Shown here: in pieces, positions 38,071 through 53,068 of the stretch
Position numbering within the stretch: the first letter of the stretch is position 1
Layout of the letters: each line of letters starts with the position of its first letter
NCBI GenBank assembly: GCA_025210265.1
Contig: JAOASD010000004.1
Span: 372,001 to 436,000 of the forward strand
Reading direction: 5' to 3'
Source of the DNA: Pelagimonas sp.
Lineage (GTDB): Bacteria > Pseudomonadota > Alphaproteobacteria > Rhodobacterales > Rhodobacteraceae
DNA length: 64,000 nt
The notes under the pieces: model-generated
Database searches by the model: none
What the model saw: the letters and a program-made list of their open reading frames with translations, nothing else
Told to the model about the DNA's origin: nothing
Position numbers and translations under genes: made by a program

Positions 38071-38147
38071 GCGGTTGTAGCTCAGTTGGTTAGAGTACCG
38101 GCCTGTCACGCCGGGGGTCGCGGGTTCGAGCCCCGTCAACCGCGCCA
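38071..38147 (+). tRNA. tRNA-Asp (GUC)
   Basis: A complete cloverleaf: acceptor GCGGTTG pairs with CAACCGC, the D arm is GCTC...GAGT, anticodon GTC is at 38105-38107, and the T arm CGGGTTCGAGCCCCG follows. CCA is encoded. Identical in all 77 bases to the second copy at 38223. Confidence 0.97.
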
Positions 38148-38222: not shown

Positions 38223-38299
38223 GCGGTTGTAGCTCAGTTGGTTAGAGTACCGGCCTGTCACGCCGGGGGTCGCGGGTTCGAGCCCCGTCAACCGCGCCA
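38223..38299 (+). tRNA. tRNA-Asp (GUC), second copy
   Basis: The same 77 bases as the copy at 38071-38147, with anticodon GTC at 38257-38259 and encoded CCA. The two genes are 75 bases apart and probably one transcript. Confidence 0.97.
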
Positions 38300-46796: not shown

Positions 46797-51019
<4,223 letters not shown>

Positions 51020-51244
51020 TCATATCAACCATCTGATAACGTACGTTTTTATTGGTTGGCCGCGATGTATCGCGGGACACGACTGTGCCGCAAAAGAAAA
51101 CGCGCGCGCCGGGGAAGGGGCGCGCGCGTTCAGGGATGCGCAGGGGGAAGTCTGGCATCGCCACATTTGGAGCCATACCGGGGGGAAGACCGGCAAGACC
51201 CAATTGGAAAAAGGGAAGCCTGTGCGAGAGGCGTTTTCCAATTT

Positions 51245-51269
51245 GTTCTCAAATGTTCTCATAAAGTTC
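51245..51269 (+). promoter_or_regulatory. LexA (SOS) box cluster
   Basis: GTTC-N7-GTTC, the alphaproteobacterial LexA site, is exact at 51255-51269. A third GTTC at 51245-51248 lies six bases upstream of the first half-site, and a GAAC at 51293-51296 lies downstream. The box overlaps a possible -35 (TTTACA) and lies 62 bases before the start of the 40-residue protein. Confidence 0.8.
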
Positions 51270-51331
51270 TTTACATGCGGTTAATGGTGTGAGAACAAAT
51301 AAGCAACAAATTGAGGTAAGGGAGAGCAAAA

Positions 51332-51454
51332 ATGATCAGATCCGTTCAGACCGTCCTGACACGCAGAGATTCAGGTCTTTGGCAGGATGCGCTTGGCATG
51401 GTTGCGCTTTCGATCATTTTGTTCGGGGTTCTACACCTGCCCGGACCGTTCTAA
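51332..51454 (+). CDS. SOS-controlled 40-residue membrane protein
   Basis: ATG 51332 with GTAAGGGAGAGC before it encodes 40 residues, starting MIRSVQTVLTRRDSGLWQDA. The basic N-terminus is followed by one hydrophobic helix (LGMVALSIILFGVLHLPG, residues about 21-38) and a two-residue tail, so it should be a single-pass inner-membrane protein with the N-terminus inside. A terminator follows at 51614-51647. The upstream LexA box indicates DNA damage induction. Caulobacter SidA, a 29-residue SOS-induced membrane division inhibitor, is a precedent, not a clear homolog. Too short for normal ORF finders, so probably often missed. Confidence 0.7.
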   Translation: MIRSVQTVLTRRDSGLWQDALGMVALSIILFGVLHLPGPF

Positions 51455-51613
51455 GCCTTTTGTCGGGGGCTTGCCCCGAACATGATTTCTGCCTGCGTTT
51501 TCAAACCCGGATCTGTTGTCCTGTCTTCCTGTCCCGACAGGGCGCATTTATCCCCACCGGTCCCTCTGCCTGAGGCTGGTTTGATCCACTGGTTCCTGTG
51601 AACGCGTCACTTG

Positions 51614-51647
51614 CCGCCGCCTCATGTCCCGAGTGCGGCGGTTTTTT
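51614..51647 (+). terminator. Terminator after the SOS small protein
   Basis: CCGCCGC pairs with GCGGCGG, extended by CTC/GAG, around a short loop and ends in six T. It also lies just beyond the stop of the convergent chemoreceptor gene. Confidence 0.88.
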
Positions 51648-51664
51648 CTATCCGCATTTTGTGT

Positions 51665-53068
51665 TCAGAATTTATAGGCCAGACGCAATCCGCCCCAATG
51701 GCGGCCCTGTACCGTGATCGGGGCAGAGAGGTCTTTCATCATAACGAATGTGCCGCCGCCCATATCCCGACGATAGACCTGCAGCAGGAAAGGTTTTTGA
51801 TTGCGCCCGGATTTCAGGCCCACCCGGTCGTCGAAAATCCGACGATTGCGGCAGTTTCCCGCGTTCCAAACCGGATCATCGCTGAGCGGCTGCGAGAATT
51901 TCAGATTATGCGTGGGCAGATAGCCGTTGCGATCCACCGCTGCGCAGAACACGATCCGAGGGTCCATGTCCAGAACCGGTTCCTGAATCGGGGGCAAAAT
52001 CGCGTCTGTCAGGGTGGTAAACGCGGTCGTCACCTGTTCCGGTGCGCTGCCCGGTACGGGCTGATATTGGGTGTCAAACATCTGCTCCAGCGTGAGCGCC
52101 CGGCCCTGGATCGCGGTTTCAAAGGCCTGCATCACCTGTCCAGCCAGATCCTGAACCCATGTGATCATGCGCCCATCTTCGCCGCTGCCGCCCAGGGCGA
52201 CGGCGTTTTGTAAAATCGCCTCGGATGTATCGACGAGTTTGTCGCATCGCTGATGTGCCTCGTCGACACCGGCAGCAACATCATTGACAGAGCGCGTTAA
52301 CGTGCCGATGGCAGGGGCCACGGCCTCGACCGCGGTTTGCGCGCGGGTCGAGGCCTGGCTGAGGTCATGGGCGTTTTGGCCCAGGTTGGCGACGCGTTGT
52401 TCTATATCTTTCAGGGCCTCATCGGTGCGGGCGCTGTTGTTCAGAACCGTTTCGGCACTGCGTGCGTTGGCGTCTGCGCCCTGGTGCAGCGCCTGCATCC
52501 ATTCTGCCAGCTGTTTCACGGTGGCCGAAATGCGGTCGGCTGCGCCGGATGTCTTCTGGCTGAGTTCGTTGACCGCGTCCGCAACGATGGAAAACCCTTT
52601 CCCGGCCTGTCCGGCGCGGGCCGCTTCGATTTTGGCATTCACTGCCAACAGTTTGACCTGCCAGGAAATATCCGAAATCTGAGAGTTGGATTGCTGGACG
52701 GCGCGCAGCATCTCTTCGACCTCGGGGCCCTGGGCGTGGACTTTGTGCACCCAACTGGCCAGTCCCTGTGATTCCAGCCCGGAATCGGCAATGAACCCGG
52801 TAGAGGCCCGCACACGGTCCAGCGCGTGATCCGCGCATTGGGCAATGTCGGCCACCGCATCGCGCATTCGGGCACTGGCCTGGGACAGTTCCTCGGTATT
52901 TTGTTGGATATGCTGGAGATCCGCGCTTTGCTGCTGACAGCGCGCGTCGAGATCCTGAAGAAACCCGCCGATATCCACGGTTTCCCGCCCCAGCCCGGTG
53001 GCATCGCGAGTCAGCGCGGCAAGAGGGTCGTTATGATCGACGTGTTTCAGAGATGTGTCATGCTGCAT
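51665..53068 (-). CDS. Soluble methyl-accepting chemotaxis protein with C-terminal sensor
   Basis: A 467-residue chemoreceptor without membrane helices. The first 300 residues form the coiled-coil signalling region, with the tip-like KLLAVNAKIEAARAGQAG and KGFSIVADAVNELSQ. The last 120 residues form a separate sensory domain, recognisable by NCRNRRIFDDRVGL, PFLLQVYRRDMGGG and SAPITVQGRHWGGLRLAY. This tail is common in alphaproteobacterial soluble receptors, where I believe it senses a cytoplasmic ligand; the fold is PAS/Cache-like by appearance. The arrangement, sensor after the signalling domain, is inverted relative to membrane receptors. Confidence 0.85.
   Translation of the reverse strand: MQHDTSLKHVDHNDPLAALTRDATGLGRETVDIGGFLQDLDARCQQQSADLQHIQQNTEELSQASARMRDAVADIAQCADHALDRVRASTGFIADSGLESQGLASWVHKVHAQGPEVEEMLRAVQQSNSQISDISWQVKLLAVNAKIEAARAGQAGKGFSIVADAVNELSQKTSGAADRISATVKQLAEWMQALHQGADANARSAETVLNNSARTDEALKDIEQRVANLGQNAHDLSQASTRAQTAVEAVAPAIGTLTRSVNDVAAGVDEAHQRCDKLVDTSEAILQNAVALGGSGEDGRMITWVQDLAGQVMQAFETAIQGRALTLEQMFDTQYQPVPGSAPEQVTTAFTTLTDAILPPIQEPVLDMDPRIVFCAAVDRNGYLPTHNLKFSQPLSDDPVWNAGNCRNRRIFDDRVGLKSGRNQKPFLLQVYRRDMGGGTFVMMKDLSAPITVQGRHWGGLRLAYKF

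Follow-up and report, generated by a model that had tools for sequence, protein, structure and literature searches.

Our comparative analysis revealed a short gene that lies directly after recG, is near-universal in the Rhodobacteraceae and encodes a 40-residue membrane peptide. Comparison of its orthologues establishes the gene with its promoter and LexA boxes, coding selection on the peptide and a conserved RNA structure in the 3′ UTR, all at a single-copy locus kept across the family. We regard the locus as a strong candidate SOS division inhibitor of the Rhodobacteraceae, a family for which we found none described in the literature. SOS membrane microproteins are a known kind of molecule; this peptide family, its double LexA promoter and the attached structured RNA were not found described. 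A preliminary description of the window (the whole stretch of 64,000 nucleotides that was analysed) had assigned the SOS-regulated gene and its own terminator to 51245–51454. This interval is correct but too short, as the transcript probably extends from about 51305 to 51648 (roughly 340 nt). The gene does have a conserved terminator, at about 51612–51648, but the hairpin just 3′ of the stop codon (about 51463–51484) lacks a T-run. The structured 3′ RNA and the second LexA site had been missed. The features of the locus are as follows.

48929–51019, plus strand: recG (Pfam), the upstream neighbour on the same strand, preceded by ligA
51245–51248, plus strand: extra GTTC half-site upstream of LexA box 1 with N6 spacing, from the sequence and orthologue conservation
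51255–51269, plus strand: LexA box 1, GTTCTCATAAAGTTC, a perfect GTTC-N7-GTTC that abuts the −35 element
51270–51298, plus strand: putative promoter, from conserved blocks at near-fixed spacing
51270–51275, plus strand: putative −35 element TTTACA (TTGAC in several divergent members)
51293–51298, plus strand: putative −10 element GAACAA, separated from the −35 by a 17-bp spacer
51293–51307, minus strand: LexA box 2, GAAC-N7-CAAC, reverse-oriented over the −10 and +1, with GAAC and CAAC conserved
51320–51326, plus strand: ribosome-binding site GGGAGAG, from the sequence
51332–51454, plus strand: 40-residue single-helix membrane peptide, MIRSVQTVLTRRDSGLWQDALGMVALSIILFGVLHLPGPF, from the ATG frame, orthologues, dN/dS and predicted helix
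51486–51648, plus strand: structured RNA of the 3′ UTR, from a covariance model, fold z and covariation
51486–51495, plus strand: RNA leader UUUCUGCCUG, predicted to pair with CAGGCGGA over the ftsZ ribosome site
51612–51648 (about), plus strand: intrinsic terminator GCCGCCGCC..GGCGG-T6, kept in 91 of 107 loci
51665–53068, minus strand: convergent gene for a methyl-accepting chemotaxis protein of 467 residues (Pfam)

The case for box 1 rests on comparison. The box pattern by itself is weak and not significant, with three occurrences of GTTC-N7-GTTC in the window against 1.4 expected and 94 genome-wide against 50 for a reversed control. Box 1 becomes significant because it is conserved across orthologues: it is perfect in 106 of the 107 orthologues compared, which come from different genera, and stands at a fixed place relative to the −35. 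GTTC half-sites begin at 51245, 51255 and 51266, and the upstream one retains 1.5–2.0 bits per position (n = 106 orthologues). When the orthologues are aligned on the box, the conserved blocks are GTTC, GTTC, GTTC, TTTACA, GAACAAA and CAAC, and the offset of GAACA from the box is identical in 96 of 106. A scan of the locus with the sigma-70 consensus did not find the promoter; from the conserved blocks we infer that TTTACA is the −35 and GAACAA the −10, with a start site near 51305. LexA box 2 is a half-consensus site with one half-site changed, which is a perfect GAAC-N7-GAAC in two loci (L185 and L199) and is similar to GAACAAGAGGCGAAC, the box at recA in the same genomes. A perfect box was found at recA in nine of ten Rhodobacteraceae genomes and at lexA in nine of nine, and the promoter box of our locus is of the same type as these recA and lexA boxes, as expected for a member of the LexA regulon. 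This amounts to strong comparative evidence for LexA control of the locus. Since a single box is the rule at Caulobacter SOS promoters (about 97%; PMC12700426), the double LexA site suggests unusually tight control.

The peptide gene has the same length and place in most of the family. Exactly 40 amino acids are encoded in 94 of 107 unique orthologues (genus representatives), with an ATG start in all, and recG is the neighbour in nearly all orthologous loci, the gene lying directly 3′ of it; the chemotaxis gene adjoins the locus in part of the Rhodobacteraceae only. The preliminary description had claimed a perfect box with a third, overlapping GTTC (the N6-spaced half-site at 51245), a short gene with a ribosome site (here at 51320), a single membrane helix and a position after recG. 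All of these were confirmed, and both the frame and the box aligned across relatives as it had proposed. A strong GC-rich hairpin just 3′ of recG (51098–51131) has a T-rich tail only when read on the minus strand; it is terminator-like and faces recG.

A peptide profile built from 24 sequences and used at a loose cut-off (E ≤ 0.5) matches 319 of 346 Rhodobacteraceae genera and 283 of 303 in good genomes; a closer-subset scan of named genomes gave 57 named loci. Among 21 genomes with an absent or weak profile match, 13 carry a box and a single-helix frame of 36–43 residues after recG, one has a box at a contig end and seven have neither. The AT-rich, fast-evolving family members L198, L201, L203 and L204 have a box and a very divergent single-helix frame of 36–42 residues after recG, which indicates that the locus is older than the reach of the profile. 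Outside the family, none of 22 loci from other alphaproteobacterial families has a box and frame after recG, and the profile gave nothing convincing in a 289-genome sample of the class: the sole match there (E 0.0076) covers 18 residues within a frame of 290. The dN/dS of 0.10–0.12, or 0.15–0.17 without the codons used for finding the loci, argues that the peptide is under strong coding selection. Neither Pfam nor NCBIfam has a family that covers it (matches were at chance level only), and PHROG and PDB returned one chance-level match each. A plasmid or phage origin was rejected, as there was no plasmid or phage match; the gene is present once, at a single locus.

A survey of 59 genomes detected no LexA in five. 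The peptide is clearly missing from the recG locus in three of these five, a fourth is incomplete and has a divergent peptide, and the fifth could not be judged. Presence of the peptide is associated with presence of LexA (Fisher p 0.006). Genomes G008, G190, G218 and G029 have no detectable LexA, and in them the peptide is absent wherever the recG locus is readable.

The second part of the transcript is an RNA with an unpaired leader, a long closing stem (P1), three hairpins with UGCCU or CUGUCC loops, and the terminator. CTGCCTG occurs in 87 and CTGTCCC in 81 of 107 3′ UTRs, compared with about 4 in shuffles, and their reverse complements are nearly absent. The UGCCU and CUGUCC motifs sit in unpaired loops with several repeats per RNA, and conservation of the leader and loops falls in these unpaired regions. 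A P1 of at least 6 bp forms in 95% of 99 folded UTRs versus 29% of dinucleotide shuffles; its 5′ strand takes 93 different forms. Cognate P1 strands pair better than non-cognate ones (22.9 vs 19.2; 0 of 20000 permutations as high), in a test that is weakened by related sequences. In pair counts on A3, 89.2% are paired (84.4 shuffled), 16 pairs have changed on both sides (8.4 shuffled) and covariation is 0.148 against 0.097 shuffled; none of 500 shuffles was as high for any of the three measures, and slid controls pair at 37–50% and have lower covariation. A sequence-only alignment of all 3′ UTRs did not show the core structure, which was recovered with a closer UTR subset and a covariance model. 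This model, R1, was built mostly from Ruegeria, with the window copy outside its alignment. It matches the window copy at 51486–51648 (57.5 bits, E 6.7e-12) as the single match on the home genome, locates the element at the corresponding position in about 75 of 88 other loci, and gave no match on 42 control loci. The window RNA has a fold z of −4.95, and no Rfam family, DicF included, matches it. Overall, the comparative evidence for a conserved RNA structure is strong. We rejected cis control by pairing of the 3′ RNA with its own ribosome site, for which there was no cognate signal (p 0.31). The main text of a paper on Ruegeria pomeroyi sRNAs mentions neither recG nor LexA nor SOS.

The peptide is modelled as one helix from residue 2 to 35 (mean pLDDT 76). 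Conservation along the helix shows a periodicity that peaks at 100 degrees per residue (p 0.003, n = 94 sequences), and the conserved face comprises D19, G22, L26, L30, L34 and P37, of which D19, G22 and L34 are invariant or near-invariant. The net charge changes from +1 before residue 19 to −1 beyond it, which suggests an N-in, C-out topology. The conserved face is easier to reconcile with a specific partner in the membrane than with general damage to it. As a short SOS-type peptide with one predicted membrane helix, it resembles SidA of Caulobacter crescentus (29 aa), which is also alphaproteobacterial, LexA-repressed from a GTTC-N7-GTTC box, very short and anchored by one inner-membrane helix. 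The likeness is one of regulon, size class and helix; in sequence, the profile gave nothing convincing beyond the family in the class sample. In contrast to SidA, our locus is confined to the Rhodobacteraceae, lies at recG, encodes 40 residues with D19, G22 and L34, and bears, besides two LexA sites, a structured RNA in its 3′ UTR. By analogy, a SidA-equivalent way of working is plausible, whereas a soluble FtsZ inhibitor of the SulA fold does not agree with a 40-residue single helix that has no Pfam or NCBIfam match. FtsW is the known or predicted target of the SOS membrane peptides SidA, YneA, SosA and ChiZ (PMC4211646, PMC13396833). YneA, SosA and ChiZ are SOS membrane division inhibitors with shown or predicted FtsW binding (PMC13396833) and in this resemble the role proposed here, but they are larger, come from other phyla and, in the case of YneA and ChiZ, have a LysM domain that is absent from our peptide.

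In E. coli, DicB is soluble and DicF acts on ftsZ. The dicBF locus joins a small protein and the division-regulating RNA DicF (PMC10448788), and for this reason we tested ftsZ as the single candidate target of the structured RNA. Both loci yield a small protein and an RNA from one transcript, with a link to division that is proposed for ours; dicBF is prophage-borne and DicA-controlled, whereas our locus is LexA-controlled and part of the core genome. The leader could pair with ftsZ over 8 bp, including one G-U, and the predicted pairing overlaps an ordinary ribosome site. This site, ACAGGCGGA, is present within one mismatch in all 28 genera with the locus (L314–L341), and the start regions of lpxC (a small, imperfect set), recA, lexA and the peptide gene show no comparable block. 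Whatever the cause, something constrains the ftsZ ribosome site. The consensus leader UUUCUGCCUG can form at least 8 bp with the ftsZ site in 28 of 28. We ranked 1068 gene starts on 60 stretches of the home genome, about 1.2 Mb in total, with ftsZ scored separately: only six (0.56%) match the ftsZ score, which places ftsZ at about rank 7. The leader is not more complementary to gene starts overall than shuffled leaders are (11.58 and 11.43), and an equally good match to ftsZ is reached by 1.2% of shuffled leaders. When the leader of each individual genome is used, ftsZ is in the top 5% for 20 of 28; in several of the 28 genomes the pairing at the leader is down to 6 bp, and in G026 the best pairing lies elsewhere.

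The ftsZ site also follows the presence of the locus. Among divergent genomes with the peptide the full site occurs in five of seven (G004 is without it), compared with none of five Rhodobacteraceae genomes without the locus and none of 16 from other families. The ftsZ site of G190, which has neither locus nor LexA, is CAGGTGGA, one base off. Within the Rhodobacteraceae the association of site and locus is significant (Fisher 3e-5), in a presence/absence pattern that is confounded by ancestry. Complementarity to the ftsZ ribosome site is what a DicF-like RNA would display, with ancestry and the short pairing in several genomes as caveats. Targeting of ftsZ by the RNA is a supported hypothesis based on correlation, and we hold it as such because ancestry confounds the pattern and the site overlaps the normal ribosome site.

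We give about an even chance to a LexA-controlled division checkpoint that combines a SidA-like membrane peptide with an RNA that is probably DicF-like; expression after damage, the membrane target and division arrest are the parts that we infer. With LexA bound both at the −35 and over the −10 and +1, the transcript would be kept tightly off until DNA damage leads to LexA cleavage, which would free both sites and allow synthesis of the one RNA. The peptide would then enter the inner membrane with a short N-terminus inside, one helix and a short HLPG tail outside. Its conserved helix face may bind a protein of the septal synthesis complex (FtsW, FtsI or FtsN), as for SidA and YneA, and restrain this complex. 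The unpaired RNA leader could cover the ftsZ ribosome site and lower FtsZ synthesis in the manner of DicF. A possible ftsZ-pairing RNA on the same transcript would be an independent pointer to division control. The full version, in which a single LexA transcript hits division twice, through a peptide on the septal machinery and an RNA that blocks ftsZ translation, and in which RNA and target site have co-evolved, is a tentative proposal that we consider somewhat improbable.

Several other readings have to be weighed against this checkpoint. That a chance box and a spurious short frame happen to lie 3′ of recG has a negligible probability: the box pattern alone is common, but all the comparative evidence speaks against an artefact, and the conservation of box and frame rules it out. 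The peptide could instead be a depolarising toxin like TisB or DinQ that slows metabolism after DNA damage, with the folded 3′ UTR setting stability or translation. LexA control, a short hydrophobic peptide, the double LexA lock and a structured mRNA would all suit such a toxin, and DinQ and TisB are likewise SOS-induced single-helix peptides (PMC3567139). DinQ does not cause filamentation (PMC3567139), and an SOS single-helix peptide therefore need not do so, which counts against the division reading. TisB/IstR and DinQ/AgrB, which share RNA-level control with our locus, are type I toxin-antitoxin systems with an antisense RNA, whereas none is seen here: the intergenic conservation profile has no conserved antisense promoter or antitoxin block, and the promoter scan of the locus was empty on both strands, leaving room for a weak promoter. 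Moreover, the one-faced helix with invariant D19, G22 and L34 and no cationic face in its membrane span, the single copy without plasmid or phage relatives, and a 3′ RNA that does not pair with its own ribosome site (p 0.31) argue against a toxin, which we regard as rather unlikely.

The remaining alternatives concern the RNA. The 3′ structure might be an element of mRNA stability or termination only, its complementarity to ftsZ being incidental to the C/U-rich make-up of the RNA and the purine-rich one of the ribosome site. It does end in the transcript's own terminator, and complementarity to purine-rich sites is easily obtained. However, the rarity of the ftsZ score among gene starts and shuffled leaders, a leader that does no better than shuffles against gene starts overall, and the conservation of leader and loops in unpaired regions speak for more than this, and we judge a mere stability element unlikely, if a serious contender. 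Conversely, the RNA may be the main product or have targets other than ftsZ, with the peptide secondary or regulating transport, gene transfer agents or a protease at the membrane. The repeated UGCCU and CUGUCC loops would suit many targets, and several other gene starts of the home genome score as high as ftsZ. ChvR, an alphaproteobacterial sRNA of Caulobacter that is made after DNA damage, has one non-division target, chvT (PMC6237742); unlike our transcript it is non-coding and controlled by ChvI-ChvG. Strong coding selection on the peptide stands against the RNA as main product, and the ftsZ site comes and goes with the locus, so that this reading too has a low probability in our view.

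The Rhodobacteraceae are an abundant marine, phototrophic family, and the locus is present in nearly every genus sampled. If the proposed checkpoint is true, a whole bacterial family would carry a bipartite SOS checkpoint of peptide and RNA as a native part of its chromosome. Should the RNA target ftsZ, a single promoter would drive a peptide and an RNA that halt division at two separate points, a rare type of switch. The orthologues provide a large natural sequence set for work on FtsW-targeting microproteins, and tractable strains, Ruegeria pomeroyi for example, allow direct tests of the locus. Elsewhere in the window, two tandem tRNA-Asp (GTC) genes lie on the plus strand at 38071–38147 and 38223–38299, with equal Rfam scores.
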